DNA of 38,481 bases from a virus, in IMG/VR virus record IMGVR_UViG_3300029319_000156, positions 1 through 38,481 of that record; one strand, written 5' to 3'. Made by a program: the position numbers and the translations under genes. Of the stretch, positions 22,501-38,464 are shown piece after piece (within the stretch, counting starts at the first letter, position 1; each line of letters begins with the position of its first letter). Under the pieces are notes generated by a model. That model made no database searches. It saw nothing but the letters and a program-made list of their open reading frames with translations, and had not been told where the DNA came from.

Positions 22501-24162
22501 GTCTTTTATCCTGGGCAGCTTTTCAATTAATGTTGACAGTTGGTCTAAATACGACGACATTATTTGAGTTATATTCTTTAAATTTTTCTCAGCGTCATCG
22601 TCGCCTGATAATATCCACTCTGGGAAGTGTGCCCTCATAGAGGTAACATTTTGTCTATCCCATAAACTTCCAGATATTTTAAGATCATTTAAAATACTGA
22701 TATAGCTAGGATTATTAGAATAAATAACAGGATCTCTAAACTCTATGTATCCAGATTCATTTATTGCTGAGCCATGATTTCTTTGGTTGTAAGTTGTGTT
22801 ATATCCAATAAAATTACCATTAGTAACCCTGCCAGAATAATCTAAAATAACTTTATCTTCTGTAGCACTGCCTACTATACCTTCATTAAATTTGTAATAA
22901 ACACCTAAATCCACATTTGATAAGTCACTATTAGTTCCACCACCAACTTGGCTAAACCAAGATCTACCTATTTGTTTTGCTGTTCTTTTTCTTTTCCAAA
23001 ATCTAAACTCATCTATTGATCCAGATATCTTATTCCAGCCTTGGCCATTTGGATTGATTAATGTTCCTGGCTCCACTGCTTTTGATATCCAGGGATGTGC
23101 GACTGAAGATCCAATTGTAGCCACCATACCCGATGTATTTGGCGTGCCGTCAATTGTTATTGGCCCTAGTGATTGTCCAGAAGCTGTTAAAGTTTGTTTA
23201 AAATTGCCATCCATATAGGCAGAAATGTGTAGATCATTACTTTTGTTGTGGAATGTAAACGCATAATGATGCCAATTTCCATCTAGAACAGAAGAGCTTG
23301 GAATCTGAGTGAAAGCTTTTGAATTTTGATAGATAGAAGAAGTTGCGTTGAATCCACGCATAAATGTTTCAGATCCAGAAACGCAATTAACAAAAAACGC
23401 ACCATCATTAGTTGAATTGTAAAAATTCTGAAAGAATAACGTTAGTCGACCATAGCTTCTAGAAGAGCCCGTGATGCCATTCCATAAATCAAATACAACT
23501 GGTGTTGTTGTTGTGGAAGAGCTAAGAGGCCAAGAGCCGGCTGCGTTTTTATACCAAAACTCGACTGTAACACCTCGATCAAAGTCAACATCCAAGTTGG
23601 TACTTCTTAGGGTGTTGACATTAAAAATGTTTGCAGTAGAATCTTCAAATTTAATGTCACCTTTTGGATCTGCGTTTGGTCCACCTTTTATAAAAATGTA
23701 TTCTTTAACACTAGGTTCAGACAATTCTACATGGCCACCCCAGTAAGCAGTGTTAAGATTAGTATCAGTTATGTTGCTGGCGCGTGTACCCCAGCCAACC
23801 GAGCTGGATGCAAAATTTACAAATCCGGTTTTTCTTGGATACTTTTTATCAAAGATAAAATTATCTAAATCACTAGCTTCATTATGCCATTGTTGTCTCT
23901 CTTTTAAGGAGCCATCGTAGGGGTATGTTTTTCTAATGTATGCAAAACTTTTATCATAATATTCTTCTGCGGAGCCATAAAAAGCAAACTTTTCTGGCTT
24001 GTCATATTCAATATTGGGCACATATCTATTTTTAGATATATTCCTCTCTGTCACATACTCTAAGGATTCTAAATCCTCAGTTATAGTATTAACATTTTCA
24101 TTGGAAAGAACATCTATATTTTTTTCTTTCTCAAAAAGTTTTTTTATATCATTGTAGCTCAT
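13582..24162 (-). CDS. Giant (3526-residue) baseplate/tail protein with LamG-like domains
   Basis: One uninterrupted frame of 10.6 kb. A LamG-like jellyroll lies at about residues 195-405 (VTVEFWYKN, DGNWHHYAFTF, ISAYMDGNF, GSIDEFRFWKRKRTA), followed by GVYYKFNEG. A second, more diverged one is at about 750-940 (WNLSVTIRP, LFVGAHRTN, RIINARVWSK). Between them, at about 505-680, is a helical segment containing FPEWIL, LDQLSTLIEKLP and YKSKGNQKSLKQMLHTLGL; the KGxxxSLKxML pattern recalls tail protein I (P2 gpI), the counterpart proposed for T4 gp7. Residues about 1000-3400 are mostly unrecognised. The last 120 residues are rich in Pro, Gly and Glu (for example PEEPPTQGPPPQ) and probably disordered. 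The gene overlaps the end of the preceding gene by 14 bp, with GGAAAAAG as its Shine-Dalgarno. The order gp25, gp6, then this region supports a wedge/outer baseplate or fibre role; the gpI link is tentative. Confidence 0.85.
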   Translation of the reverse strand: MSYNDIKKLFEKEKNIDVLSNENVNTITEDLESLEYVTERNISKNRYVPNIEYDKPEKFAFYGSAEEYYDKSFAYIRKTYPYDGSLKERQQWHNEASDLDNFIFDKKYPRKTGFVNFASSSVGWGTRASNITDTNLNTAYWGGHVELSEPSVKEYIFIKGGPNADPKGDIKFEDSTANIFNVNTLRSTNLDVDFDRGVTVEFWYKNAAGSWPLSSSTTTTPVVFDLWNGITGSSRSYGRLTLFFQNFYNSTNDGAFFVNCVSGSETFMRGFNATSSIYQNSKAFTQIPSSSVLDGNWHHYAFTFHNKSNDLHISAYMDGNFKQTLTASGQSLGPITIDGTPNTSGMVATIGSSVAHPWISKAVEPGTLINPNGQGWNKISGSIDEFRFWKRKRTAKQIGRSWFSQVGGGTNSDLSNVDLGVYYKFNEGIVGSATEDKVILDYSGRVTNGNFIGYNTTYNQRNHGSAINESGYIEFRDPVIYSNNPSYISILNDLKISGSLWDRQNVTSMRAHFPEWILSGDDDAEKNLKNITQIMSSYLDQLSTLIEKLPRIKDVEYLSGSFKPTPFSDRKLSSMGFMTYDLFRDAEKIEKYLDRNEDKNYSEKVHNVKNFIYDNIYNNLTSIYKSKGNQKSLKQMLHTLGLDEDLFKINLYASNLTYEISEDFKYLTRKRKVLDFSRKENYPASVFQAKDPTDSSSLSYISGSPSPSSMATNTGMIPVGPLYEVNVLFPKEQDLATPPFRQFPHISSSIFGVHTHEENSAANIFTWDSADPANFQVFAVRDAIGSSKAKFVLAGTNGSVYSSAALESPFYEVYDNDKWNLSVTIRPTNLETADLVQVTGSASHSADRNYQIEFRGFNANSDIIENSFSMSSSLTTQAGISALTSSTRLFVGAHRTNFTGSIVNRSDARIINARVWSKYLEDEELRQHALDIENHGVLNPLRNISAADRNKNAAASTGPGIFIPNKDSLVLHWEFSNLSGSNALGEFIVQDVTSGSSGRYIEAGGLGNVLYRSHTGKGIDFPASSANIFDVDYIPVAAQRLPEILSSVDMIKVLEQDDEFFPSSRALPIRYLLAIEKSMYQTVSEEMIKTLATVREFGNLIGQPVNRYRQEYKSLEKMRQAFFENVKNTPDIEKYINFYKWFDTSVDRMLQQLIPASSYQLSGYGDTIESHVFERNKYWTKFPTVETKAPDIEGILLGINEMLYDYDCGRAPLDQNNQNDSCVWWKDRVERDSVVLSSGDAFVDSNKESIRSALTTVISSSRPTFLTFAGTRYQGSNYVVRNLSKPFNFEVAKSLILQGGPNNLSHNNTQKDYIYALSREFSGSLNYIRIPSDNPGTASYCECDPEVIMESYRVPLKRKLYGEPVGAQGSIARFRDGIPVDYDSQQADLNLPFNLYSGSVSNGYKTAFSIPEALDITNVHHDTYGNDNEIPMQGPYTQQNVGGTQHRHQALNNKLTDSSANRAEAWTLQGAPGNELRLMQPGGRPAAAGNQDFIDIGAARGYYRRDNVAKSSVNIKNIKMSGNVTDDQGQVQSLLSPLYTGRSENAGHSHNRLLGTIGNYRNNYEVVQSTGRDVNNLLWKDRNQYFADDFTNGDIEDSFTPSTTISGVVDHHLFSHDVFYGPFSQQDRNTVVTALKANARTADLSTITKGVKNRTIFNERFAAPGGPEVMSRGAMDGKSSTYSVYNSMNYRNTTVRDALDVLWTVHSDQFGTSSIPTASAEYFGGVGVPSYHKVNRNTLRRLELTNETADLSSQLGSGISPVEHDDNKWISHEIPRSDFQYSWITASAESTIRNSGQQQPFHLVERASGHAPASGFVSGAMVAGNTIPAPYGSSRRPAITFLSQSRSALIQGIASIGGGVGPIAEYVADVDHAYVTSPPAKMAGTIHHPFVRINMIIADPIATSSVERVTPIDGKPFEFVHKNLTGFSQRDNILDFTDPTISTTVAPPFHKFLPVRPSYFNTINFGRPGISSPSLGPGNPFWPFTVFWAGIPGHDKSGLPSSSPPAPGGGILFNGLMLERNGPYGYSSFKQIRAGENPLNRFFRRNNIISFISEEKKFNLDNQQEIVDYIVQEAGAGKTVEEIHLQISQIEGTLRERVISNVFEPPLTDKYKPFRHTLLVKEQNGGNTQTVLRYTHGNNQTSFANVLLNEKLNTFNKTSQLYDDIKGYYLTTLVPGDANPLDTFQIGRGMVSLEYTECIYPREKYTFLKKNRMRTNFETGFWKDARVCEYNVFTDAPYWYLVRFQQPLEYGYEKIVFGRNEYNYSGSQGYDNVGGVEPNNGFFARTNSLNAVVTVHSGGEGIVPNANSSIWPLDARAQFTRTDGKDSVLVGTDPSQIVGSNKSALSAAVGNQTAFNPHQRIGKGFSGLDGAGELQNDYCIFHNGDLFQHGLGDTTTSTAFTYLRGTNGQTAGLRAACLYNRRVPDFSDGKIMYPGDTFWDAGRQANLEFVIDRQSNKKCVGPFYDSYDAWSEDLNAAGQGYTIVPEYRMSEHIDDYLQLGFFPTKLEDEPSNWLELTGATISDISKRSSEILHEDFVDVYSTTDFLKYFQVLEEEHLGNHYPSRITLSCKALKKFLPYDGFYPATRTLQLATLFSQSYGNQLGLHGTQANFRTVTTPLFAPGILFNTIKSGIAVDYPIMVSGNYEITGASQNFGALGHDEGTPRILSLISNTGVKKYNFDARLPFETIMQPARFIQSISTLGEGKVVDSEPHSSASIDSTGSLGRANDSKDPRYYLAMNNFLASSVEFFMEDSRLKTFVSNPAKEWGSFKTNTLYRMILVLHSSEINNTDAFDEEVNTFKAASGYWHGGPLVLNTNKDINKSKAHSTDNFPNRIVMYERFGPGRPQAKKHDFFGSSFGPPVAMWNSESTSSFSLASGHSDTDYFMIPGNSYSASYAPYTPPYYNGMATAVIDFFPEDDGPVELDDILENARITFLRECDAPWMTHDWGQNTFELTWAPNSNSLAAKAAMQLSASVDLGGKAIGYRSVTLNQTGDLVGFGTAEDAAASESWVIAPKFECPTFDFSAQTSETMTMPNSGSGAVAKGLWHQYSNDHGGKFTIDITAPGFPPVSTSTGVQLSILTPALVGQSLKQLLSPELITAKYTNPFTGENVVEVQDLAAKIGMKLDSKIESKYIQTYKDLYNDAVAKDVEDPASYGNVVDAKNAILTQIANRDEKTTQLGKVAKSKTIHEAVLAIPFTTDTDGQMNFYTFPRNWARYALNQDLSVLPGEEGLPPSEGGKVIPSETVIDQINKLKKYVLPPHLDYLGNENITPYIMYLFEFKHSLTQEDLGLIWQNLPPRTLMDIPEPKLSVSTIDHDLFIHDFFGLSAGYKSFNFPKKDIRWMVFKVKQRALKDYASITPKTSDEPEYRPWDAITGLDPTVNSYGYNWPYDFFSMVELVKMNAGITLTPGSRPDSTGPGGEGELDFRPFDYDDPGVAPKSGLYVPPDRGVPEEPPTQGPPPQRSESTGMRPEEQASLPGASGEFVGGFAGGPQNGGYQSDQGKNEEDPTVGVSLVLKTVRDRNRDV

Positions 24163-25741
24163 CTTTTTCCACTATTCTGAATTTAAATACTTCCGGTTGC
24201 TCTTGGTAATCATCGTTAACTTTATATAAAAATTTAATACCGTACATATAATCAGGCTCCAAGATTGACATATCTAAATCAAAATAGTTTCCAGAGATGT
24301 CGTGAGATAATCTTGTATGTTGCGTGCTGCCTGTCCCATAATTTATTATATCAAAAGAATCTTGCACTCTAAAGAGTTTAAAATATGCATCTTCAACAAT
24401 TGTGTTTTCTGGTTCTGCGCTAGCAACTGTATAAATTGTAGGAGACCAATCTTGTGCCCTGATAAAAACTCTAAAATTGGCTTTCTCGACCACACTATAC
24501 TCTGATTTTAAATTTGTTATTTTTGTTCGATAATTAGTAAAATTATTTACACTAGAGGCATTAAGCGCTGAGGGCTCAATGAAAACAGAGCCAGTGTGCA
24601 CTTCTTTTCCTCCTACTTCCCAAACATCCCAAACATATGTTGTAGTGCCTGATGATGTTAATGCAAATGAAGCGCTGTATATACCAGTTGAAATTCTTGT
24701 AGAAGTAACACTGGTAATATCTAGGTTTGTTGCGGCATGCTTGAGTGTTAGTTGTATATCATTTGGCGAGCTAGTTGTTCCAGAATATAGCTTTAATACT
24801 GGTAAAATAGATGAATTACCGCCAATATCTTTAAGCTGCCCTTTTATATTATTATATAAATACAAGGAGTTTAAATTGTCAGACGCAGGGGCTAAAGAGC
24901 TGCTAAAATAAAAATTGCTTCTATCATCTTTTTTTGAAGAATCCCAGCGTGCTTCAATGATTGGGCGCTTAAAAAAGAATTGCGACCCCCTAGCAAAAAA
25001 TCTTTTTGTGTAGTAAGAACGGGTAGCTCCTGCTGGATTGTGAGGTATTGATCCAGACGTTAAACCACTAGAGCTTGAAAAGAATGCTTCTTGGCTTGAT
25101 GTCAAATATACAGCTAAGCCGTAATTTTGTCTATGCTCTGTTTCTCTACCGTCAAGCCACTCTTCCACCATCGATGTTATATCTACCTCAAGGTCTTCTG
25201 TGCCTTTTTGAATTTTTGCAGTATACATTGGAAAATTGACTCCCGACGCATAAGAAGCTGTATGAAAGTCTCCACCAGGCTCAAGCCAAAACTTAGTAGA
25301 ACTTCTTTTTACCCAATTGCTAGTATCTCTATCTAGATAGTTTTCCATGTCCAATCCAGATCCTTCATTCCAAGATGCTGAAATAGCCTGCACATTAAAA
25401 GTAACATTTGCAGGCACAGTCTCAGAATGCACAGCATTAGAAATTTTTAAGAAAAAGTTTACACTGCCACTATTTGGTATCTTACCATTAAGTCGATCGC
25501 CGTAAATTTGTCCGACGCTAGATCCAGAAACAGGAAATTCTAACAAAACTCTAGATAGCTCAGTTGTTCTAGTATTTTGACCGCTAGCGGAAGAAGAAAA
25601 ACTATTTTGCCCGTAAATAGAAAAAACCTCTAAAATATCAGATGCACCCATATTAGAGCCAGTGCCTCTTGTAGACAAATTTTCTTTAAAAGCGTTTGTT
25701 ATAGTATTATCTTTTGTGGCAATATATCTTTTAATAGCCAT
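24149..25741 (-). CDS. Tail protein with DNRLRE-like beta-domain
   Basis: A 530-residue protein directly after the gp6-like gene. The first 220 residues follow the DNRLRE-type beta-sandwich pattern known from extracellular and cell-wall proteins: LSRVLLEFPV (62-71) for the core strand, VQAISASWNEGSGLD (117-131), VDITSMVEEWLDG (186-198) and NYGLAVYLTSSQEA (206-219). A middle segment (about 290-365, LKLYSG and TTYVWDVWEVGG) looks like a second small beta-sandwich. The C-terminal region contains NYRTKITNLKSEY, AYFKLFRVQDS and ISGNYFDLDMSILEPDYMYG, a pattern I recall from other large-phage baseplate-region proteins. Its ATG overlaps the upstream TAA by one base (TAATG), and its own end overlaps the giant gene by 14 bp. 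This tight coupling suggests a fixed stoichiometry with the baseplate wedge proteins. Carbohydrate binding is possible but not demonstrated. Confidence 0.83.
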   Translation of the reverse strand: MAIKRYIATKDNTITNAFKENLSTRGTGSNMGASDILEVFSIYGQNSFSSSASGQNTRTTELSRVLLEFPVSGSSVGQIYGDRLNGKIPNSGSVNFFLKISNAVHSETVPANVTFNVQAISASWNEGSGLDMENYLDRDTSNWVKRSSTKFWLEPGGDFHTASYASGVNFPMYTAKIQKGTEDLEVDITSMVEEWLDGRETEHRQNYGLAVYLTSSQEAFFSSSSGLTSGSIPHNPAGATRSYYTKRFFARGSQFFFKRPIIEARWDSSKKDDRSNFYFSSSLAPASDNLNSLYLYNNIKGQLKDIGGNSSILPVLKLYSGTTSSPNDIQLTLKHAATNLDITSVTSTRISTGIYSASFALTSSGTTTYVWDVWEVGGKEVHTGSVFIEPSALNASSVNNFTNYRTKITNLKSEYSVVEKANFRVFIRAQDWSPTIYTVASAEPENTIVEDAYFKLFRVQDSFDIINYGTGSTQHTRLSHDISGNYFDLDMSILEPDYMYGIKFLYKVNDDYQEQPEVFKFRIVEKDELQ

Positions 25742-27540
25742 TACTTAATCACCCCTACAATATCAACTGGCTTTAACTTAACTTCTAATATAGAATCAGC
25801 TGGTATAAATAATATTCTACCATCATTGGACATATTTTCTTCAACGTCAAAAAATGTCGTGCTATATCTAGATCCAACTTTGGAAACTATTTCAATATTT
25901 ATTGTATCTAAAACTCCCTCTACATTATTCAACATCTGATATAATTTTGTTATGTATAAAGGCTCGCCAATATCAAAATGACTACTGAAATATTCTATTA
26001 ATTCTACCCTACAAGATTCTAAAGTTTCATACTTATCAAATCCATCTTCAGATGTGACCATAAAATTAACACCAATATTAATAATTTTCGCATCTAAAAT
26101 ATCAATCGTATCACTAATCATTTTATAATCATTAATCCAAAACCTTAAGTTATCTTTTACGGTTCTATTTGTTTTAATTAATCGATCACTTTCGTCGGTT
26201 GATACGACGAATAAATTTAAATTTCTTTTCAATGAATCAGAGTCTTGTAAGACAGTACATCTCTTAACTGTTCCAAACTTTCCAGGCATTCTGTAGACAA
26301 CGCTAACATAGTCTTGAGCAGTTACAGCTCTGTTTTGACTAGCATACGCATCAATTGCATGCCTTTTAATTTCATCAGCGGTTTGAGAAGTAGAATCTCC
26401 AATAATCGGCTCTTCATTAGTACATTCGAAAGATGATAAAACATCCGAAACTTTAGATGGTACCAAGCTAGGCTTGCTAAATCGCACAATTCTATTTGAA
26501 ATGTTATTTACAGTGTTAGTAGCAGCGTTAACATTTTCAGTTGTGTTTGCTCGGTATTTTATTGTTAAAGTTGTATTAGCCGGTGAAACTCCAAGTTTAT
26601 CGGTAGACTTTAAATTTGATGGATCAAAATTTTTACTTGTCGAGTAATTTTTACCATGAGCTTGTAATACAACCTCACTAGCCCTTGTTAAAGGTTCGTT
26701 TGAAATAGATTCATCAGATCCAAAACCAAATTGTAAAAAAGTAATTTCACCTTCTTGTTCAACTGTGAAACGCCTTGGAACTGATTGAGGGCGCAACAAA
26801 ACAGTTGGAGCGTCAGGAGCTGCGTTTGGATTTAGTATTTCTCTATAAACTACATCTTGAGACAAGTAGTCAACTTCAAAATATTCATGCCCTTCTGAAT
26901 CAAAAACACTAACAATTTCAGTTACTCTTAATGCCTCTAGTTCTAATCTTTTAAGCCTTTCAAAATCTCCAACTTGAATTGATTGTGTAAGCAGCTGGCC
27001 AGAAACAACTTGTCCAAAAGATTTTATTGCATAGCTTGTTGGTGCACCAGTATCTTCATCGACTCTAGCAACAACCATTTCATTATTGCCTTTTGAAAAA
27101 TCAACATCTTCTACTAACACAAAGGCTGTGCCTGCATTATTTGCTAATTCAGTTCCTTTTTTTAATATTGGCATATAATCCGAATCTGGACCAAAACCTG
27201 TGGCCATAGCTGGTACAACGCAATAAAAAGAAACAATACCCGTTGACGATGGCGTATCTCTGAATTTATAGCCCATTTGTTTTGCTAATTTAACAATGTT
27301 ATCATATTCAACAGCTGTATCCATAAAGGATTCGTTTGCTTGAAAATCTAAATAAAAAGATAAAACGTCACCAACATAAGACACCAAATCGATCATTAAT
27401 GAGCCAAAACTCGCTTCATTAAAATCTTGATACGTGTTTGGGTAATATCTTCGAGCATGCTCTACCAAGCTCTTTTTAATTGAATTAAATTCGCGATCAG
27501 TATATTTTATTGGTACTTTCTTTTTATTGTGACCTGGCAT
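25741..27540 (-). CDS. Baseplate wedge protein, gp6/J-like
   Basis: A 599-residue baseplate wedge subunit, the T4 gp6 / P2 gpJ family, which forms the ring that ties wedges together around the hub. The family's N-terminal signature is clear: YTDREFNSIKKSL, YPNTYQDFNEASFGSLMIDL (34-53), YVGDVLSFYLDFQANESFM, then an IVKLAKQMGYKF helix. The C-terminal part includes NRAVTAQDYVSVVYRMPG (about 402-419), NLNLFVVS and LRFWINDYKMISDTIDILD, typical of gp6-like proteins of T4-type phages. The length is close to T4 gp6 (660). It follows the gp25-like gene by 59 bp, the same gene pairing as P2 W-J, and is followed with a one-base overlap by the DNRLRE-like protein. Shine-Dalgarno GAGGAA (27547-27552) supports the start. 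This is the most certain functional call in the window. Confidence 0.95.
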   Translation of the reverse strand: MPGHNKKKVPIKYTDREFNSIKKSLVEHARRYYPNTYQDFNEASFGSLMIDLVSYVGDVLSFYLDFQANESFMDTAVEYDNIVKLAKQMGYKFRDTPSSTGIVSFYCVVPAMATGFGPDSDYMPILKKGTELANNAGTAFVLVEDVDFSKGNNEMVVARVDEDTGAPTSYAIKSFGQVVSGQLLTQSIQVGDFERLKRLELEALRVTEIVSVFDSEGHEYFEVDYLSQDVVYREILNPNAAPDAPTVLLRPQSVPRRFTVEQEGEITFLQFGFGSDESISNEPLTRASEVVLQAHGKNYSTSKNFDPSNLKSTDKLGVSPANTTLTIKYRANTTENVNAATNTVNNISNRIVRFSKPSLVPSKVSDVLSSFECTNEEPIIGDSTSQTADEIKRHAIDAYASQNRAVTAQDYVSVVYRMPGKFGTVKRCTVLQDSDSLKRNLNLFVVSTDESDRLIKTNRTVKDNLRFWINDYKMISDTIDILDAKIINIGVNFMVTSEDGFDKYETLESCRVELIEYFSSHFDIGEPLYITKLYQMLNNVEGVLDTINIEIVSKVGSRYSTTFFDVEENMSNDGRILFIPADSILEVKLKPVDIVGVIK

Positions 27541-27599: not shown

Positions 27600-27998
27600 T
27601 TAAAGGACTTCTGGACTTAAGTTAAATTCCAAAGATATTGAATCTAATAAATTTAAAGTCGCTATCTCATATTCAATAATAATGCCAATTGCATTTGGAT
27701 CTCTAACATTATCATAGCTATCGTCAATTACTAATTTTAATATATTGATGTATGGCAAATATTTTCCAACCTGTTGCCGGATATCCGCTTCAATTTTAGA
27801 GTAAGTTATAGGCACTGCACTTTCAAAAAAGTACCTCTGTAGTCCAACCCCAAATGTTGGATCCATAACTCTTTCGCCAGGGATTGTTAATAAAAGCATT
27901 TTTAAATTTTGATTGGCAACCTCACGATAGGTTTGATTTAAGCCTATTCCATCGTTATCATCTATCATTAAAGGCAATTTTGGTGAATATCCTGGCAT
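27600..27998 (-). CDS. Baseplate wedge protein, gp25/GPW-like
   Basis: A 132-residue protein of the gp25 / GPW family, the small wedge subunit related to P2 gpW and type VI secretion TssE that nucleates sheath assembly at the baseplate. Visible marks are the helix NQTYREVANQNLKMLLLT (21-38), the core turn PGERVMDPTFGVGLQRYFFE (40-59) corresponding to the conserved EPR-type loop, and the helix-strand IEADIRQQVGKYLPYINI before IIIEYEI. The length matches the family (T4 gp25 is 132 residues). Its Shine-Dalgarno TAAGGAGAA (28004-28012) contains the stop codon of the upstream giant gene, so the two are translationally linked. The following gene is the gp6-like wedge protein. Confidence 0.93.
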   Translation of the reverse strand: MPGYSPKLPLMIDDNDGIGLNQTYREVANQNLKMLLLTIPGERVMDPTFGVGLQRYFFESAVPITYSKIEADIRQQVGKYLPYINILKLVIDDSYDNVRDPNAIGIIIEYEIATLNLLDSISLEFNLSPEVL

Positions 27999-28003
27999 AC
28001 AAG

Positions 28004-28012
28004 TTCTCCTTA
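28004..28012 (-). promoter_or_regulatory. Ribosome binding site of the gp25-like gene, fused to upstream stop
   Basis: TAAGGAGAA on the minus strand: the first three bases are the stop codon of the 3484-residue gene and the rest is a strong Shine-Dalgarno 5 bp before the gp25 ATG. Ribosomes finishing the giant protein would stop on the initiation region of gp25. Confidence 0.85.
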
Positions 28013-31000
28013 ATCGTCGTCATCCATTGGCTCAAAATCAAGCTGGCCTTGAGCGACTAATCTCTGATAAGCCTCGTGCTTTTCTTTACACAATATTTCA
28101 ATATCGTCTGGCAGGTCATCATCAGTAGAGCGCTCTGATATATCTGCCATATCACCAAAACTAATATCTCGATATAATCCAAGAACTAAATATGCTACGC
28201 CGAATGGAGTTAATGGTGGGCCGATGCCAGGTCCGAGAGGGGGAGGCGGGAATCCACAGCCATATGGTAGCATACTAGGTAACATAGCAATACTAATTAG
28301 GGGCACAGGCATATTCTCCAATACATCTTTAAGTGTGTTTTTAATCTTTCTTAATTTCCTGTCCATATCAGTTTGTGCTTTCTCTTTCAACTCTCTTAGT
28401 TTACTAGCAGATAGAGCTGTACCTTCTGGTGCACCAATTTCTTCTATGTGGTCGGCGATATATGTTAAAAATACAGGCTCGACAATACAAGGATCTGCTT
28501 TAGTAGGCAATGTTTCAATTATAATTTTTAATACTTTTAAAATTTTATCAATAATGAGAATGTTTGGATCAAAAGCCTCAGTAACACCTTTAAGAATTTT
28601 AAATGGCGTTTCTAGGAAAAGCTTTAGAATCATTAAACCAAGATTCATTTTCTTAGGTTCAAAATTCTTGCTATTAAATGCATCACTAAACATAGCAGCA
28701 GGGCCACCAAGAGCTGCCAGCTGAGGATCATCAAAATCAAAACCTTCAGCTCCTGAACCTCTTAACGCAGATGTTATCAAGGATTGCAAAATATCTCTGG
28801 TGCCGCTATACATCAATGGTCCTGGACCAAGCTTTGTCATCGTCATCATAATGTTTATTGAGTTTAAAGTAACATATCTTCTTAACGGGAGTGCATAATC
28901 GAACAGAGCATTATATTCTTCTGATTGTTTTATTTGATTTACCAAATCTTCATGAACATATTTATAGTAGAAATCTTCTATATATGGAAGATCACTCTCA
29001 TCCATACTTGGTTCTATAGTGCCAAAGATTCCAGATATTGACTTTTGGCCTAACGACTGTTCGCCATTTTCATCAGTTAAAAACTTTTGTTTGATACTGA
29101 TTTCTTTTTCAACGATTGGTATTGTATAATATTTTCTTGCCGCTGCAGCAGTTTGAGATCCAGGAGCTGTTTCTTCATCAATTTGTTGAGCCGGTACTAA
29201 AATTTGCACCTTGGTCTGTGGTGCTCCATCTAAAGTTCTTAATCCAGCAATAGCGCCACCGGAGTTTGGATCATCGATTAGATATCGACCATTTAGAGAT
29301 GCTCTATTTTGATCTTCCAATATTTCAACAACTTGTTCTGGTATGTTTTCTTCATTCGATACATAACTAAGCCTAAGACCCCAACTTATACTGTTAAAGT
29401 AGCCATCGTCTATTAAGCTGCTTAAAGGTAAATCAACAATATCTTTCATTCTACTAGGCATAATATTCTTTGCAATATTAATTGATTCGATGTCTAATTC
29501 GGCCAGCTCGCTTGCTGCTGCGTATGAATCATCATATTGATTAATAATTTTAAATTCTCTTAATCTATCGAGCACACTCCATACCAGTTGCACTGCACGA
29601 GATGTACCATCAGTCAACAAAGTCGACGGCAGCGAACCAGGATAATCATAATTGTGTTGCATAATATTTGTACATTCTGGAGTCATATTATTATATTCCG
29701 AAAATATTTTATATTCTTCTGGATCATAATCGGCTGGATAACCAATACCTTTAGTGATTGTCTCTTGGGTGGCAGGAGTTAACAGGCCACTATACACTGG
29801 ATGTATTACTTCGTCTAAAGTCCAGTTATCTGTATTTGGCCACCTAGAAGGGTGCTCCTTACCGAGAGGAAGATCTTCCTCTGGAGTTATTGAATGTTGG
29901 GCCGAAACTAAAACCCACTGTTGTAACCAAGTTCGTTTTACATATTGCCAAGTTTCTGGAAGCCAATAGGAATATATAGGATAATGATTAATAAGCTGAG
30001 ATAGCATAGAATACAGACTTGGATAACTAATAACGTCGTAATCTGAATTACCATTGTCTTCTGCAATACAAGTAAACGGTGCTTTGTAGCCTGGCCTATC
30101 TGATGGCGACTCGCCATAAACACTTGGTAAATTAAGTTCAGATATATGCTGATCATCTGACGCCTGCGGAAGACTTAAACCTTTAAGACTAGTATAAACA
30201 AAGCTGTCTTCAGTGTTGACCGCAGTACGAGGATAATATTGCGCAAACCTTTCTTTGTCAATAAGCTGGCCTGACTCGCTACTACTGTATTTAAAAAAGA
30301 ACATTTCTTCTATTGTGCGAATATCATCTAATAAATCATTAAATTTACTAGAAATTTCAAGCAAACCAATGCCTGTAGCGCTATAAGCATTAAAAAAGTC
30401 TTCATAACGAATAAAGTCGTCATTTTGTAAATTAGCACTATAATATGCTATATCATCATGCCATCCATTTTTCCAATGCATCGCATTAAATATTTCCTGA
30501 TTTAATGGTGATATATTTGCTATGCTATCATTAAATTCATCCTGATAATTTTCATATTCCTCTATAATTTGTTGATTTGATTCGGTTTGTTGTTCTATTG
30601 TTTGTTCAGCAGAGTCTACTGCTTGTTGTAATTTAATTTGAAGTTCGTATATGCTTTTTAAAAATTTAGAATATTCTTTCATATTGACATAATTTACAAG
30701 TCCAGTATTCCAATTATAAAGATCGTCTTCAATACTAACAGAATCGTATAAAACCTCAACTTGGCCGGGCTCAGTATTAGCCAAGCCAACAGCATATTGA
30801 GCGTTTATAAATGGAGCTATTAGCAAATTTACTGGTCGATATAAATCAGAGTTTTCAAAACCACTTTGTTCATCATAACTATAATTTTGCACAATAGCGC
30901 TAGCCTCTTCGCTGTCGTAACCTAAGTCTTTTAATTCTTCAATTAATATAGCATGATTATTATAAGCTTTGTCTTTAACTCTAAGATATGGCTCTAAAAT

Positions 31001-34000
31001 AAAAAAGCTTTCTTTTTCAAGAACATCTGTAAACAAAGTCTCTCTATTTTTTTGATGATAAAAATCACGAGCATCTGTAATGGTATCAAAGCCTAGCGTA
31101 TTTATTTCATCTTCAATGACATTATATAGCGGCGCAACATCTTCAATAGCCTGATCGCCAAGAATAGCGGGCATCGGCGATGGTATAGCATGTGGCGGCT
31201 CCCCTGGGTAAAGAATAACTTCAAACTGGTCATTTGCCAGATTATAGGGAAAAACGTGCTTTGGCTGATTTAAAACAGCTAAGCTTAAAAACTTATCTTT
31301 ATTATAATCATATAATTCATTATTTTTTATGCTGGAAGCTAAAATCATTCTAAACTGGTCACTAACGTCTGCAAATTGCTCTTGAGTTAAGAATTTGATA
31401 CAATCATAGCCAGTTGTTAACTTTGGCAGAATTTCGTCACCTCTTTCTGACCTTTTAAAAATTATTGATTTTGCTATGTCTTTACCCTCAGTATATATTC
31501 TTCTTTCAAGCAAGTCATCTTTAATAAACTTCATCAAGTATTCAAGAAATACTTTATCATCAAAATAATCTTCTACTTTAAACTTAGCCAGCATGAAAAG
31601 AGTATTTAAAGAAGAGTTTACAACAAAAGTTCGAATATACATTTTAAGAGCCATTTCCGAAACAGCTTGTTGAAGCGGTGGTGTGTCGCTTGGTCCAGTT
31701 TCGCATTCTTTTGCTGTCGCTTCAGTATAAGACTTAATAGCCTCATCAATAAATTTATCTGGATTCAATAAGCTAGCTACTTTAACGCCTCCTTCGTAAA
31801 CTCTAACTGGTATACCGCACTCGTCTTTAGCGTCGCGACTTGCAGGTGTCAAGTCTAAGTTTTCTAATTCAGTTTTTTTAAAAAACTTAGATAATGATAT
31901 TTGCTTTCTCATTTTAAAAATTAAATCTCTTCTTATATCTTGATAAAGATTGTCCATTGCTTCTTTTTGCAATTCATCTTCTGATAAGTTTAAAGAGTTA
32001 GAAATAATTTTATCAAACATAATGAGCTGAGGTGCGAATTGGCCGTCAAATGAGCCAAGGTCTGTTCCCGTAGCTAGCATATCATTTTGTTTCGCGTAAA
32101 TTTGAACTGATTCGTTGATGTATCTCGAATTTTCAAAAATAAATCTTTCACCTTTTTCTCTGATATCGATATAAAAACTATCAATTAAAGCGTCGACACT
32201 TAGAGTTTTATAAATTAATTTGTTATTACCCTTTCTCGGCACCTGTAAAATAACAGAAGATTCTTCAAGATTTATTCTTACTTCAAATCTAGATTTTAAA
32301 GCTTTTCTTAAGCTATTGGCAACAAACTTATCAGCCGATAAATTCTTTAGAATATTAGCGTCAACAGCTCCTTGGCCAACGGGCGCAGTAGACCAGAAAG
32401 ATGAGAATAATTCGTCTTTAACTTTTTGTGTGCTAGGAGGACTTTCACCTTGATCAATATTAATCTTCTTGCCAAAAACATCTTTTCCTAGTTTTTCAGA
32501 CTCAGAGGGGCCTTGATTTTTTGATATTTCTTCTGCTAGTTTTGTTTGTTTTTCTGCATCTAAATTATCAAGCTGATTTGGAGCAGCAGTTTCTTCGCCA
32601 CTTTCATTTGTCTCTACTCCAAGCGGGATGGTTGCCTTTAAACATTGTAAAGCAAAAGTAGGAATTGATGCGATCCCATCCGATGAGCCATTCCCTGAGT
32701 TGCCAGAACTTTCTGCTTCAGATAAGGCTTTTAAAATGTCTGGCAAAGATTCAATTGCTTGGTCTAAATCAAATAATTTATTATCTTCTATTAGCGCCGG
32801 TACAAAGTATCCTGTGTCGGCATTAAAAACCATGGTGACAGAATCTGCGATGTCCTGCAGCATTCTTTTGAGCGCTGCCTGAAGACCGGGAAGCTTTTCT
32901 TTCATATCTGCAATGTCAGAACAAATTTCTGGTAGAGTAAAGTCTAAATTTGCTAGGCCTTGGACTGCATTAATCGTATCGTCTCTTTCTCGTTGCAACA
33001 TTTCTTTGCATTGTTCTTCAGTTAGTCCTGCTTTCAAACAATCACTTAATTTTCTATTCTCAATTAAATCAGGAGGACAATACTTATCTCCAAACGTTGG
33101 TACAGGATTTGCAAATTTACCATCCCTTACATCTAGACAAATTTGAGGATCAGCATATTTTCCAAGAACCATTAAAAATTCTCTTAAATCATCTTCAGAA
33201 GGCAACATTGATGATATTGGCTCATATCTTTCTTCTAAAAATTCTCTTACAGTCACCATTAAAACAAAGCCACCTTCACCGTTAAAAAGTGAACAAAGCT
33301 GGGTTGGTGTAAACAGAAGAGACATTTCATCAACAACTTCCCAATAACTATACGTTGCGCCGGGTGCTGAGGAGCCATTTGGCGTTACATCAAACGGCAA
33401 ATTCCAATCATTAAGCTCGCCTTGCAACTCTCTCAGTCTATCTTGCAATTCACCTAAGTCTGGAAGTTCAACGCTTGAGTTTGGACGTCCATTAAATATA
33501 TCAGACGCTGTTAGATCACCAAATCCCTCGTTTCTACCTTTAGACTCTGCATCATCACACGCTTCATTAATAAATTGTGCTAATATCTTAATTGTGCCAG
33601 TGATAAGCTCTTCAAGCATTTGTTCTAGAGCAGTCTCCATCATCAGCTTAAGCAAGCCATCAGGATCTCCAGTCCTTCTTACTAAGCCTCTAAAGCTATC
33701 AATATTGACTTCTGGTGGTGTTGGAATTTCAGGTATATTTGCTGCATTAAACATGGCAGCAAATGAACCATCAAGGGCACCTTTAATTAATTGTTTTAAA
33801 ACTTGTCTTGTTGGAGGTGGAACAAATTCTAATAACAGATCAATAAACTTCTCCATAACAATGCCACAATCAGGATCCTCGGTTAGAAGTTTAACCAACC
33901 GATCGCCATTAAACTCAGGATTTAGTGATACATTTGTTGGGAATCTACCAGTAGCTCTAAATTGCTGCCAAGCCTCTTCAACCGTTCTAGGAAATGGATA

Positions 34001-37000
34001 AACCTCTGTAATTGTTGATAGATAGCTATCTGGTGCAAATAAATTATTTTCTAAAAATTTTGTTCTTATTTCAGTTATCTCTGCGTTGTAACACTCAGTA
34101 TATCTTCTTAATGAATCTCTCAGATTTGCTGCTAACTTTTCATCGGCTATTTTGTCAATGTAATCATCGCCAGGCCACATTGTTAAATCTTCAACTCCAG
34201 CATTCGCTAGATTTGTTATTAATTCATTTCTCAAATCATTACATTTTGCTTCAACTTTAACAACTAAATTTGCCATTTGTGTCGCTTGTTCTTCTTCAGT
34301 ACCCTCGCTACCAGTATATTGATCTTTTCCCTCTCCGATGACAGGTTCTTCTTCGGCAGAAGACATACAATTAGCATACTTAATTTTTAATGCATCTTGA
34401 TCTTGAATTAATTTTTGAATATCGCCAATTACTGCAGTGGAACCACCAACAACCACTTGCGCTTCTGACGCAGCAATTTTTCGTCCTATTTTTATTATTT
34501 CAGCATATATTCTGTCACAAGGCCCTGGTGCACCGAGGCGACAGTAAAATCCTGCTGGAGGTCGAGGACCTATGAAATTTAATTTATTTGCTTGTGAAGG
34601 ATCTAGTAACTCATCTAATTTTTTAGCCTCAGCGCTATTAGCCAAACCATCAACAACAGATTTTGCAAATTTAAATTGTTTGTTTGTAACAGTTCCGACT
34701 GATACAACTTGATCAGAAGGATCATTGCCCAAAAACCAAACACTTTCATCAGTCGCTGCTATCTGTCCAGCTCCTATAAGCCAATTTTTAGTGGCTAACT
34801 CTGTCTTTGGGCCAAATATGCCATCAATTGGAAAATCTGTTTTAAACCAAGTCTCTCCTGGCTCGCCTGGCCAATATTGTTGAGCAGTGCCCTTTGCATA
34901 CGAAGCTGGATTAAAATGAGAGGATGGATTTTCTGGGTCATCGTAGAGATAATATTTATTATCTCCCTCTTGTCTAATTCCTGCATAGGCTGATGGCGCA
35001 TTTGCAACTGGAATTTCATCGCCAGCAGGAAAATCTGCGGAAGGAGGATTAATATTAAATGCATTTGTAGCAACAAGAAACTGTTGCCATTTTGTAACTT
35101 GATAATCTAATCCTGCTTTTTTATCGCGAGAGCCTTCTTTCAATAAAATTGCATCTGGATCGCCATTAGGTTGAGCATCCGCACTTGATGGGGTTTCTTC
35201 CCCTGTTGTTTCTGGATCTCCTTGGTCGTCAAGATATTTTCCATATACATTATCTAGAGCGGCTTTTGTGAGGCCTTCAAGCGGATAGCCATCAATACTT
35301 ATGCCGCCGGCACCAGCTTCACCAATATCAATAGTATCAGATGTGGCAATTTCATTAAACTTTTTTGCTTGCTCCTCGGTTTCTGGTCCAAAAATCCCAT
35401 CTACTGCTAGCGGCTCAGGATTATAAGCTGGTGTTAACAACCCTCCGTATTCAGGTATCCAAGCATTAAGACCCTGTTGTGCTTTTTTAACAACTTCAGG
35501 ATCATTTTGAAAATCAAAATCAATTCCATAGTTTGATATCTTATCTTTAAAGACTCCTTTAAATATTTTTGGAATCATTGAAGTTCTTATGGCAACTATC
35601 TGCAGATGCGCTTCAACACCAGAAGATTCACTAGACTCGCCAGATTCATTAGGTTCATCAGGCTCACTAGGCTCATCAATAGTTTCACTTGAAGCGGCGT
35701 CAGAGGCGGGAACTTCTTGAGCACCTGTAATGGTGCCTGTTGTGCCATCATAGTTTCCTATGCCAGGTATTTCTTGTTCTGGTGTTTTTTCATATTCTAA
35801 GAATAAAGCCTCTGATAAAACTTTTGTTGTGCATTTAGTTTCTGCGGATGCAAGAATATCGCCGATAAACTGTATTGCTTTTTGTGTGTCTTTAAAAACA
35901 TCTCCCAGGCCAATAGCAATCATAACATCTTCAACAGTTGGCAGTTGTTTCATTAAGCAATTCATGATTGCATCGGCTAGTGGCTTTACACCAATCTTAT
36001 TTATGATCATATTATAGGCTTGTTCTAAACCTTGAATTCTCTTTGATATTTCTTCAATGTTTTGGACGTGAGCATCCATTGTTTCAAAAGTTGTCTTTTT
36101 AGTTTTAATGTGCACTTTGTTTTTGCCTGGATCAGCTCTAAGATCTTTTTCAATTTTGATCATTTCAGGTTCTGAATATGGTCCTTCCTTAAATTCAAAT
36201 TCTTTAATTTTTGAGTCTTCCCTAGAGCTGGATGGCAATATGAAAGCATCCTTATAAACATATTCTATAACCCACTCTGTCCATGGCTTTCTTTTTGCAG
36301 GATCATCTTTAAATTCAGTAACGATACCTATTTTTTCGTTTTGTGAAACATTTGAAGACTCATCATCTCGTGCAGGCGAGTCTTCTGTCCTAGTTGCCTC
36401 ACCACTGCCCTTTTCTGCTGCTATTTGACCAAAAACTGGATCAGCCCTAACATCAAAAGCATTATGTATAAAGAAGTTCATTCTCTGTAATTTTAAAGCA
36501 CTTCTTTGTGAATGATATTTCAAGCCAATATTTAGTGGCTGGCCATTAAACAGAATGTAAACTAATTGATATTCGGTATTCCATCCAAACTCAATAACAT
36601 CTTCTGGCTGTGGGTCTTTCGGGCTTGAAGTTGGGCTGGAGTCAGTACAAGGTTCGCCATTGTAATCATAATCATTAATTTTTAAAAATTCTTCAAAAGA
36701 TGTTTTCCATAGATCTAATCTTTCAGATTCTTTTAATAAATCTAGCGGCCCACGTATTGGGCCAAATGGAAATGATGCAATTCTTCCTTCTGAATCTTGC
36801 TTTATAGCTGCGTCATAGTAAGCCATAATTTCTTTTAAGGCTTCTATATTTTCTTGCAAGTGACCAAATCTACAAGTCAATGTATTAGAAGGGACAAAAT
36901 TATTAATTTTTATAAAATCAGGCACCGAAGCTTGGGGCAAGTATGCAGCATCCAAAAACATTTGCTGTGCCGCAGTAACTTGCTTCTTACTTCCAATCAA

Positions 37001-38464
37001 GCCATCTGTGTTCGTTGGCTGCTCTTCACCCTCTATCACTTTATCAAATTCAAAAGTTTCTAATCTTTTAGGAAACTGATCTAATGTTTTAATAGGTATT
37101 CTAACATAGATTAATATTCTTGCGCTAGCAGTTGCTGTGTCTAAATGCCATTCTGCTGGGAATCCTTTTTCACTTGGTATGGTAAAACCAGATGAGGCTA
37201 AAAGCACAGACATTTGAGCCGGCGTCATCGATGGCTCTTCTGTGTCCTTGTTTATTGGAATCTTAAAATCTTTATTGTAAAAATTAAAAATTTCATATAT
37301 TCCTAAAGCAGCATATTCAGTTACAAAAACTTTTTCGCTTTTAGTTCCAAAATTAGCAAACTTAGTTCTTATTGTTAGTTCATATGACGATTCCTCTGGA
37401 TTTTCTTGATCAACAATAAGATATGGAGTTCCAGGTTGTCTTTTTCTCCAATCAGTTGGAATATTAGACGCATAGCCGCCAGGCCTGACGTCTTCTGGCT
37501 GCTCGATAGACTTTGCATCAAACAAAACTCCTTCCACCAGAGGACGAAGTTCTGAAGTTTTCATAAATCCTTTTGAATTATCAAACTCTCCAGCCTTAAC
37601 TTCTACCTCATGAAACTTGCCTCCTCGACCAACGTTTTGTTTTATAACCTTAACAACTGTTCCGTTAATTAAAGCTTTCCAAGGTTTTGATTTATTTGCA
37701 GCGACAGCAGGCTTGCTACGAAGTAAAGGAGGTTTCTTTGATTTTTTTAGTACGACGTGAGTTGCATCAAGCTCCTTTGGGTCAATTAACGGTACTGTTA
37801 ACTTGGTGGCTTGATCGGATGGACCAGGATTTTCTGGCGGCTTCGGCAAACTACTTAAAAGCTCATTTTGATTTAAATTTTGTTGTATTTTTTGTTTTGC
37901 TTTGTTTACTTCTGCTTGAAAAACACTCAAACCACTATCTGTAACGCCATAATCTTCAAGCTCTTTTGAGGTTGGTGGTGTTAATTCTTCCTCATCTTCC
38001 ACTATATTTTCTATTCCCTCAATAGGGCCAGCAGTTTCTGGGGCATCAACAGGTGCACTGTCTCCGAACATCAAACCAACTAAATTGCTTGTGTTGCAAC
38101 CTGGCTGGCTATTGTATACATTAGTAAGAAAATTTAAGTAAGTGTCTGCTTGTACTTTGGCTTTAAATTTTAGTTTTCTTTGCCCACCGGAACCAAAAGT
38201 ATTTAAAGTCGTTGATAAATTCTTAAATAAATTATCAAAAGAGTAGTCACCCTCGCCATCTACTAAGTTAGCCAAAGCTTTTGAAAGTAATTTTGCACAC
38301 TCTCCATTTATAAATGCAGGATTGACTTGCTTGTTTTGAGGTGCTAGTTTTGAAAGCTTCTCTTCAAAAACTTCCAGAGCTGCTTTATTCCGCATTAGCG
38401 CGGTTGCTTCTTCTATTGTTGCCCCTTCATAGGGGCCTAGCATTATGGTAAAATTGTCTGCCAT
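28010..38464 (-). CDS. Giant (3484-residue) tail protein with peptidoglycan-binding motifs
   Basis: One uninterrupted 10.5-kb frame directly upstream of gp25. Residues about 258-310 (ALINGTVVKVIKQ, FHEVEVKAGEF, GFMKTSEL) resemble a bacterial SH3-type barrel. Residues about 985-1040 (KKAQQGLNAWIPEYGG, AVDGIFGPETEEQAKKF) and 1123-1230 (VTKWQQFLVA, PIDGIFGPKTELATKNWL) match the PG_binding_1 pattern; the second has about 60 extra residues inside. An acidic Pro/Ser linker (about 925-950, EPSEPDEPNESGESSES) precedes them. A Gln/Glu-rich coiled coil lies at about 2602-2656. Near the end (about 3404-3430) is a Pro/Gly-rich hydrophobic stretch, then an acidic tail EPMDDDD. No catalytic lysozyme or peptidase motif was recognised. 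In P2 the spike gene precedes the gp25 homologue, so a hub/spike-associated or wall-contacting role fits, but this is inference. The start ATG has only a weak leader (ACGAG) in the 17 bases left in the window. Confidence 0.85.
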   Translation of the reverse strand: MADNFTIMLGPYEGATIEEATALMRNKAALEVFEEKLSKLAPQNKQVNPAFINGECAKLLSKALANLVDGEGDYSFDNLFKNLSTTLNTFGSGGQRKLKFKAKVQADTYLNFLTNVYNSQPGCNTSNLVGLMFGDSAPVDAPETAGPIEGIENIVEDEEELTPPTSKELEDYGVTDSGLSVFQAEVNKAKQKIQQNLNQNELLSSLPKPPENPGPSDQATKLTVPLIDPKELDATHVVLKKSKKPPLLRSKPAVAANKSKPWKALINGTVVKVIKQNVGRGGKFHEVEVKAGEFDNSKGFMKTSELRPLVEGVLFDAKSIEQPEDVRPGGYASNIPTDWRKRQPGTPYLIVDQENPEESSYELTIRTKFANFGTKSEKVFVTEYAALGIYEIFNFYNKDFKIPINKDTEEPSMTPAQMSVLLASSGFTIPSEKGFPAEWHLDTATASARILIYVRIPIKTLDQFPKRLETFEFDKVIEGEEQPTNTDGLIGSKKQVTAAQQMFLDAAYLPQASVPDFIKINNFVPSNTLTCRFGHLQENIEALKEIMAYYDAAIKQDSEGRIASFPFGPIRGPLDLLKESERLDLWKTSFEEFLKINDYDYNGEPCTDSSPTSSPKDPQPEDVIEFGWNTEYQLVYILFNGQPLNIGLKYHSQRSALKLQRMNFFIHNAFDVRADPVFGQIAAEKGSGEATRTEDSPARDDESSNVSQNEKIGIVTEFKDDPAKRKPWTEWVIEYVYKDAFILPSSSREDSKIKEFEFKEGPYSEPEMIKIEKDLRADPGKNKVHIKTKKTTFETMDAHVQNIEEISKRIQGLEQAYNMIINKIGVKPLADAIMNCLMKQLPTVEDVMIAIGLGDVFKDTQKAIQFIGDILASAETKCTTKVLSEALFLEYEKTPEQEIPGIGNYDGTTGTITGAQEVPASDAASSETIDEPSEPDEPNESGESSESSGVEAHLQIVAIRTSMIPKIFKGVFKDKISNYGIDFDFQNDPEVVKKAQQGLNAWIPEYGGLLTPAYNPEPLAVDGIFGPETEEQAKKFNEIATSDTIDIGEAGAGGISIDGYPLEGLTKAALDNVYGKYLDDQGDPETTGEETPSSADAQPNGDPDAILLKEGSRDKKAGLDYQVTKWQQFLVATNAFNINPPSADFPAGDEIPVANAPSAYAGIRQEGDNKYYLYDDPENPSSHFNPASYAKGTAQQYWPGEPGETWFKTDFPIDGIFGPKTELATKNWLIGAGQIAATDESVWFLGNDPSDQVVSVGTVTNKQFKFAKSVVDGLANSAEAKKLDELLDPSQANKLNFIGPRPPAGFYCRLGAPGPCDRIYAEIIKIGRKIAASEAQVVVGGSTAVIGDIQKLIQDQDALKIKYANCMSSAEEEPVIGEGKDQYTGSEGTEEEQATQMANLVVKVEAKCNDLRNELITNLANAGVEDLTMWPGDDYIDKIADEKLAANLRDSLRRYTECYNAEITEIRTKFLENNLFAPDSYLSTITEVYPFPRTVEEAWQQFRATGRFPTNVSLNPEFNGDRLVKLLTEDPDCGIVMEKFIDLLLEFVPPPTRQVLKQLIKGALDGSFAAMFNAANIPEIPTPPEVNIDSFRGLVRRTGDPDGLLKLMMETALEQMLEELITGTIKILAQFINEACDDAESKGRNEGFGDLTASDIFNGRPNSSVELPDLGELQDRLRELQGELNDWNLPFDVTPNGSSAPGATYSYWEVVDEMSLLFTPTQLCSLFNGEGGFVLMVTVREFLEERYEPISSMLPSEDDLREFLMVLGKYADPQICLDVRDGKFANPVPTFGDKYCPPDLIENRKLSDCLKAGLTEEQCKEMLQRERDDTINAVQGLANLDFTLPEICSDIADMKEKLPGLQAALKRMLQDIADSVTMVFNADTGYFVPALIEDNKLFDLDQAIESLPDILKALSEAESSGNSGNGSSDGIASIPTFALQCLKATIPLGVETNESGEETAAPNQLDNLDAEKQTKLAEEISKNQGPSESEKLGKDVFGKKINIDQGESPPSTQKVKDELFSSFWSTAPVGQGAVDANILKNLSADKFVANSLRKALKSRFEVRINLEESSVILQVPRKGNNKLIYKTLSVDALIDSFYIDIREKGERFIFENSRYINESVQIYAKQNDMLATGTDLGSFDGQFAPQLIMFDKIISNSLNLSEDELQKEAMDNLYQDIRRDLIFKMRKQISLSKFFKKTELENLDLTPASRDAKDECGIPVRVYEGGVKVASLLNPDKFIDEAIKSYTEATAKECETGPSDTPPLQQAVSEMALKMYIRTFVVNSSLNTLFMLAKFKVEDYFDDKVFLEYLMKFIKDDLLERRIYTEGKDIAKSIIFKRSERGDEILPKLTTGYDCIKFLTQEQFADVSDQFRMILASSIKNNELYDYNKDKFLSLAVLNQPKHVFPYNLANDQFEVILYPGEPPHAIPSPMPAILGDQAIEDVAPLYNVIEDEINTLGFDTITDARDFYHQKNRETLFTDVLEKESFFILEPYLRVKDKAYNNHAILIEELKDLGYDSEEASAIVQNYSYDEQSGFENSDLYRPVNLLIAPFINAQYAVGLANTEPGQVEVLYDSVSIEDDLYNWNTGLVNYVNMKEYSKFLKSIYELQIKLQQAVDSAEQTIEQQTESNQQIIEEYENYQDEFNDSIANISPLNQEIFNAMHWKNGWHDDIAYYSANLQNDDFIRYEDFFNAYSATGIGLLEISSKFNDLLDDIRTIEEMFFFKYSSSESGQLIDKERFAQYYPRTAVNTEDSFVYTSLKGLSLPQASDDQHISELNLPSVYGESPSDRPGYKAPFTCIAEDNGNSDYDVISYPSLYSMLSQLINHYPIYSYWLPETWQYVKRTWLQQWVLVSAQHSITPEEDLPLGKEHPSRWPNTDNWTLDEVIHPVYSGLLTPATQETITKGIGYPADYDPEEYKIFSEYNNMTPECTNIMQHNYDYPGSLPSTLLTDGTSRAVQLVWSVLDRLREFKIINQYDDSYAAASELAELDIESINIAKNIMPSRMKDIVDLPLSSLIDDGYFNSISWGLRLSYVSNEENIPEQVVEILEDQNRASLNGRYLIDDPNSGGAIAGLRTLDGAPQTKVQILVPAQQIDEETAPGSQTAAAARKYYTIPIVEKEISIKQKFLTDENGEQSLGQKSISGIFGTIEPSMDESDLPYIEDFYYKYVHEDLVNQIKQSEEYNALFDYALPLRRYVTLNSINIMMTMTKLGPGPLMYSGTRDILQSLITSALRGSGAEGFDFDDPQLAALGGPAAMFSDAFNSKNFEPKKMNLGLMILKLFLETPFKILKGVTEAFDPNILIIDKILKVLKIIIETLPTKADPCIVEPVFLTYIADHIEEIGAPEGTALSASKLRELKEKAQTDMDRKLRKIKNTLKDVLENMPVPLISIAMLPSMLPYGCGFPPPPLGPGIGPPLTPFGVAYLVLGLYRDISFGDMADISERSTDDDLPDDIEILCKEKHEAYQRLVAQGQLDFEPMDDDD

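Follow-up and report, generated by a model that had tools for sequence, protein, structure and literature searches.

The stretch of DNA analysed here (IMG/VR virus record IMGVR_UViG_3300029319_000156, positions 1 to 38,481; 38,481 nt, referred to as the window) comes from an uncultured phage, probably a marine one, and encodes a giant protein of 3484 residues directly before the baseplate wedge gene gp25. Judged by sequence comparison, this giant is a member of a conserved, undescribed baseplate-region family that lies outside Pfam and PHROGs. It additionally carries two putative wall-binding modules of the PG_binding_1 type. The observations are best explained as a whole by a giant scaffold that occurs throughout the lineage, has acquired wall-binding modules in this phage and is accompanied by a separately encoded wall-cutting protein; we consider the case for this explanation to be evenly balanced.

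The open reading frame (ORF) of the giant starts with ATG. The contig ends 17 nt past this start, but the ORF is full length, since an in-frame TGA is located just upstream of the ATG. The original prediction, made from the sequence alone, had placed the giant immediately before gp25. Its single ORF is indeed intact and complete, and giant, gp25 and gp6 follow each other in this order on the minus strand, with gp25 recognized by its Pfam domain (Table 1).

Relatives of the giant were reached solely via gp6. A search with gp6 yielded 79 IMG/VR contigs with 44-55% identity, about 45 of which contain a very large ORF directly before gp25, in many cases broken off at the end of the contig or of the fetched sequence. 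The homologues comprise 1918-3025 residues when complete and >3190 residues when cut off, an approximately 1.8-fold variation in length. In blastp, the giant matches its relatives with E-values down to 1.6e-12 in the C-terminal part and 7e-11 in the middle of the protein, and hhalign gave 95.8% and 94.6% against the giant of L073, a related phage genome of 161.7 kb. Family members share the slot directly before gp25-gp6 and the order of four conserved blocks, B1-B2-B3-B4 (Table 1); B4, and B1 in some clades, was undetected in part of the members. In a C-terminal alignment of 28 sequences, the K, E, D and P residues of the motif K.LKG..E..DP are invariant, and Pro/Gly residues are conserved.

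No Pfam family is common to the members in two sets of 17 and 11 sequences, both including the giant of the window, and none was found by PHROGs in the set of 17. The giant of the window itself has no convincing Pfam or PHROG family. A tblastn search against named phages gave no match for its first 3000 residues, and a peptide-pattern search of viral contigs found no relatives with either the whole protein or its C-terminal 484 residues. T4 baseplate proteins showed no convincing match to the family blocks. A LysM domain suspected by eye at the N-terminus of the L073 giant was not detected. Weak matches of the family profile to HopBF1 in a PDB sequence search are unrelated and were taken as chance.

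Two contigs, L047 and L062, carry genes of 634/631 and 211/280 residues in the slot of the giant instead. The B2 profile matches the larger gene of each contig (E 0.001 and 0.47), the position of the match being the same. They thus resemble the giant in slot and in a weak B2 match, but are 3-5 times smaller, and a second small gene precedes gp25. At the sequence level this is no more than a hint that the giant may have arisen by expansion of a smaller protein.

Table 1 Features of the giant and its neighborhood in the window (aa, residues of the giant)
Feature	Position	Strand	Remarks
Giant baseplate-region protein	28010..38464	-	3484 aa, complete ORF; same-slot homologues at ~45 IMG/VR loci
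gp25 baseplate wedge protein	27600..27998	-	132 aa; PF04965 51.2 bits; phrog_261 E 1.9e-17
gp6 baseplate wedge protein	25741..27540	-	599 aa; phrog_219 E 4.4e-27
Segment called SH3-like in the original prediction	37535..37693	-	aa 258-310; not supported
Block B1	35912..36748	-	aa 573-851; hhalign 95.8% to L073; profile 76.5 bits at aa 741-843
B1-B2 interval	33347..35935	-	aa 844-1706; expanded in window phage only
PG_binding_1-like module 1	35225..35512	-	aa ~985-1080, DGIFGP at 1022; PF01471 14.9 bits; solved-domain profile score 36.9
PG_binding_1-like module 2, long loop	34745..35113	-	aa ~1118-1240, DGIFGP at 1214; solved-domain profile score 30.5
Block B2	32798..33703	-	aa 1588-1889; in all family clades; profile 132 bits
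Block B3	28490..29401	-	aa 3022-3325; K.LKG..E..DP; blastp E 1.6e-12 to L008
Block B4	28112..28417	-	aa 3350-3451; Pro/Gly-rich, then hydrophobic

Two DGIFGPxTE motifs had been predicted at about residues 1022 and 1214, and DGIFGP is found at exactly these residues, with a composition-based expectation of 0.00019 per protein. A further search used a profile that comprises four peptidoglycan-binding domains solved in the PDB (1lbu, 6tci, 7rum, 4xxt) and one phage domain (solved-domain profile). Within the giant, it scores best at residues 988-1039 (score 36.9, E 2e-4) and 1211-1233 (30.5, E 2e-3), whereas the best control scores were 20.8 among 26 other giants and 18.1 among 10 shuffles. In hmmsearch with the same profile, the giant ranked first of 580 sequences (E 1.6e-4), the runner-up having an E-value of 0.16. 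The profile is not wholly blind, as its structures were reached via an endolysin picked out by module 1; module 2 and the controls played no part in its choice. All 15 listed weak phage matches of module 1 (of 34) are lysin A/endolysin proteins, and one weak match of module 2 has the look of a peptidoglycan-binding domain followed by an amidase. An hhalign comparison of module 1 with endolysins chosen by module 1 (97.5%) is biased and was not relied on. The peptidoglycan-binding region found no match in a PDB sequence search by phmmer and no relatives among viral contigs by peptide patterns.

By sequence, the two motifs are part of real but divergent PG_binding_1-like modules, for which membership fails at the Pfam threshold while the similarity stands. 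They share the motif VDGIFGPxTExA and a preceding helix with the PF01471 domains of phage endolysins (mycobacteriophage LysA, EBPR siphovirus 4 gp7) and of 1lbu, 6tci and 7rum, the giant having two copies. In contrast to these domains, the modules of the giant score under the Pfam cut-off, contain long inserted loops and belong to a baseplate-region giant that lacks a catalytic domain.

Both modules lie inside an expansion between B1 and B2. The distance between these blocks is 864 residues in the giant of the window, compared with 191-411 residues in the 13 relatives whose B1 is clear. DGIFGP occurs in none of the other 37 non-redundant giants, of which some are truncated, and the PF01471 matches of the relatives fall in other proteins, one of them a peptidoglycan-binding/amidase endolysin. 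On this comparison, the two modules are a window-specific acquisition by a single member and not part of the family core. Of the predicted wall-binding giant as an unusual baseplate component, this much is supported: the protein is a giant of the baseplate region, it carries modules of a peptidoglycan-binding type, and no hydrolase can be recognised in it. The modules, however, are placed outside the core of the protein. As a separate observation, the L062 phage encodes a 530-residue protein (L102, positions 406-1998) in which a PG_binding_1 domain is clearly recognized (53.9 bits). This protein also contains short Cys/Lys-rich repeats and hydrophobic stretches; an endolysin domain was not evident in it by eye.

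The main rival explanation, possible but rather unlikely, is that the modules are structural, with a wall-binding-type fold reused as filler or as a point of contact from hub to wedge that does not touch peptidoglycan. A precedent is the LysM module of Mu gp43, which is non-catalytic and structural and resides in the tube initiator of the baseplate (PMC11915804). Like the modules of the giant, it is a non-catalytic module of a peptidoglycan-binding type in a baseplate protein; it belongs to another fold family, however, and is found in the tube initiator, whereas the modules of the giant are an insertion in one phage. The divergence and long loops of both modules would also fit a structural role. 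On the other hand, structural filler should be conserved, whereas the modules occur in only one phage of the family, and the closest relatives detected for them are endolysin domains. A chance origin or internal duplication of the DGIFGP motifs, unrelated to peptidoglycan-binding domains, is very improbable: PF01471 remains below its cut-off, the structure model has low confidence and the similarity between the modules is concentrated around the motif, but the two best matches of the solved-domain profile fall exactly at the motifs and stand clearly above the scores of 26 relatives and 10 shuffles. The listed weak phage matches of module 1 are all endolysins, and one weak match of module 2 is a peptidoglycan-binding/amidase protein.

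The segment around residues 258-310, previously read as SH3-like, did not hold up. It has no PF08239 match at E<=0.1, no Pfam match when searched as a fragment and no counterpart among the relatives.

As predicted, no hydrolase is visible in the giant, with no lytic domain found by Pfam (whole protein and fragments) or PHROGs (whole protein). The scanned relatives likewise contain no wall-hydrolase domain above cut-off by Pfam or PHROGs. A Peptidase_C10 match in one relative is sub-threshold, occurs in 1 of 10 contigs searched and lies inside the non-enzymatic block B2; it was taken as chance. Typically, the gene order in relatives is late sigma factor, a gene of ~100 residues, a hydrolase-bearing gene, a spike gene, giant, gp25 and gp6. 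Fourteen genes were examined at the hydrolase position, two genes upstream of the giant. Above the Pfam cut-offs are five of them, with VanY (L032, L056), SLT (L040) and M23 (L075, L080) domains. The gene of L067 has an Amidase_2 match of 25.8, just short of 26, that of L073 is endolysin-like by PHROG_90, and those of L105, taken from the L003 contig that is among the nearest to the window by gp6, and L109 show sub-threshold M15_4 matches. Several of the five genes without a match have C-terminal ends that resemble an HxHF motif by eye.

Catalytic activity had alternatively been proposed to hide in the ~2200 C-terminal residues of the giant. A hydrolase there has little probability. Much of the giant matches no known family and the operon carries hydrolases in relatives, which leaves some room for it, but B2, B3 and B4, the best-conserved blocks of the family, lie in the C-terminal ~2200 residues, and apart from the single Peptidase_C10 match no enzyme family was found in the relatives scanned. 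Conservation in the C-terminus mostly concerns Pro, Gly, Lys and Asp residues, which lie in a stretch rich in helices. A hidden catalytic C-terminus is also unneeded, because relatives often carry the hydrolase in a gene of its own two places upstream.

Least probable of all is a role of the giant as the tail tape measure. Its great length, its helix-rich C-terminus (in a low-confidence model) and its hydrophobic stretches would be in line with such a role, but the giant is located between the spike genes and gp25, and its family varies about 1.8-fold in length. The slot was judged in L073. There the giant is not encoded between the genes for tail tube and hub; the tube gene and a hub gene of the gp26 type cluster ~60 kb away, together with the sheath gene and a large tape-measure-like gene that is assigned by position only. 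The hub gene matches phrog_150 (baseplate hub, E 5.7e-16), which we take to be gp26.

We infer that the giant is a virion component and represents, in the window phage, a lineage-wide baseplate-region family of T4-related contractile phages. From the gene order, B1-B4 most likely serve as a scaffold or adaptor, which would link the central spike/hub, i.e. the products of the two genes upstream of the giant in relatives, to the gp25-gp6 wedge. With the two PG_binding_1-like modules, the tail tip would probably hold on to peptidoglycan. A separate gp5-like protein, whose gene lies two places upstream of the giant in relatives, would cooperate by cutting the wall; the giant itself would be non-catalytic.

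Several observations weigh against this model. The PF01471 match is below the Pfam gathering cut-off of 23 bits for the whole giant (13.8 bits, E 0.068) and for a 131-residue fragment with module 1 (14.9 bits, E 0.032), and the giant also stays under the cut-off in a contig-wide search (14.2 bits, E 0.002); module 2 had no match in the Pfam scan. Detection of PF01471, whose failure had been named as grounds for rejecting the modules, is thus weak and sub-threshold, and it is the solved-domain profile that places both motifs. A single-sequence AlphaFold model of the peptidoglycan-binding region has a low-confidence predicted local distance difference test score (pLDDT) of 32, too low for the three-helix fold of PF01471 to be read from it, and the model of the C-terminus from 28 sequences is likewise of low confidence (pLDDT 53) and has no PDB fold match at E<=0.001. 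As Mu gp43 illustrates (PMC11915804), a peptidoglycan-binding-type fold can be purely structural in baseplates. Five of the 14 genes at the hydrolase position matched no hydrolase family. In the window, this position would fall beyond the contig end, with the upstream genes of the phage itself off the contig. Because of this position, the lack of a visible hydrolase in the window is most simply an effect of truncation, and the wall-cutting enzyme of the window phage apparently has a gene of its own just past the contig end.

A more far-reaching version is offered tentatively and carries less weight than the basic explanation. Here the giant would be a modular scaffold widespread in a large T4-related lineage, the B1-B2 interval would take up host-adapted modules, two non-catalytic modules would anchor the tail tip, and holding by the giant would be split from cutting by a separate gene with exchangeable hydrolases.

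The T4 baseplate cluster (gp5, gp25, gp6, gp53) resembles the locus in that gp25 and gp6 lie directly downstream of the giant and a late sigma factor and a gp5-like hydrolase gene upstream in its relatives. The giant differs in that it matches no T4 baseplate protein tested and sits between the spike gene and gp25. Another very large tail protein with an acquired wall-active module is the tape measure of mycobacteriophage TM4, whose motif 3 is hydrolytic (PMC1796659), whereas the modules of the giant are of the binding type and its gene lies outside the tape-measure slot. With the giant, an undescribed family of giant proteins with defined conserved blocks can now be named in baseplate operons across many uncultured phages. 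Hydrolysis of the wall in this lineage is modular and gene-separated, with VanY, SLT, M23, amidase or M15 domains exchanged at a single position. Should the inserted modules bind peptidoglycan, the tail tip of this phage would keep anchoring to the wall apart from cutting it.

Further observations concern the upstream genes of relatives. L032 (positions 3-2594) has two adjacent paralogous genes (427+ and 428 residues) at the hydrolase position, the second of which contains VanY. The 871-residue upstream gene of L073 (L091, positions 14082-16694, minus strand) combines the PHROG_90 endolysin-like stretch with a weak DUF459/GDSL-lipase-like stretch. In Microcystis phage Mel-JY01, a distant relative (L082, positions 13933-14964), the gene two before gp25 is annotated as 'putative chitinase'. 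By eye, a run of sugar-nucleotide/glycosyltransferase-like genes is found beside the baseplate operon of L073 (L087-L095, ~96490-122085 of the genome), and similar genes are present upstream in L047 and L062.

Within the window, the operon of the giant contains a second giant ORF of 3526 residues (13582-24162, minus strand), of which 2713 residues were searched by tblastn against named phages without a match. It has a LamG-like stretch at residues 250-398 (PF13385 27.5 bits, just under the cut-off of 27.6), and its slot is occupied by genes of 1700-3500 residues in relatives. A partial gene at the contig end (2-367, minus strand) has the look of a RuvC/RNaseH-type nuclease by eye, and a similar gene is found at the matching position of the L073 genome.
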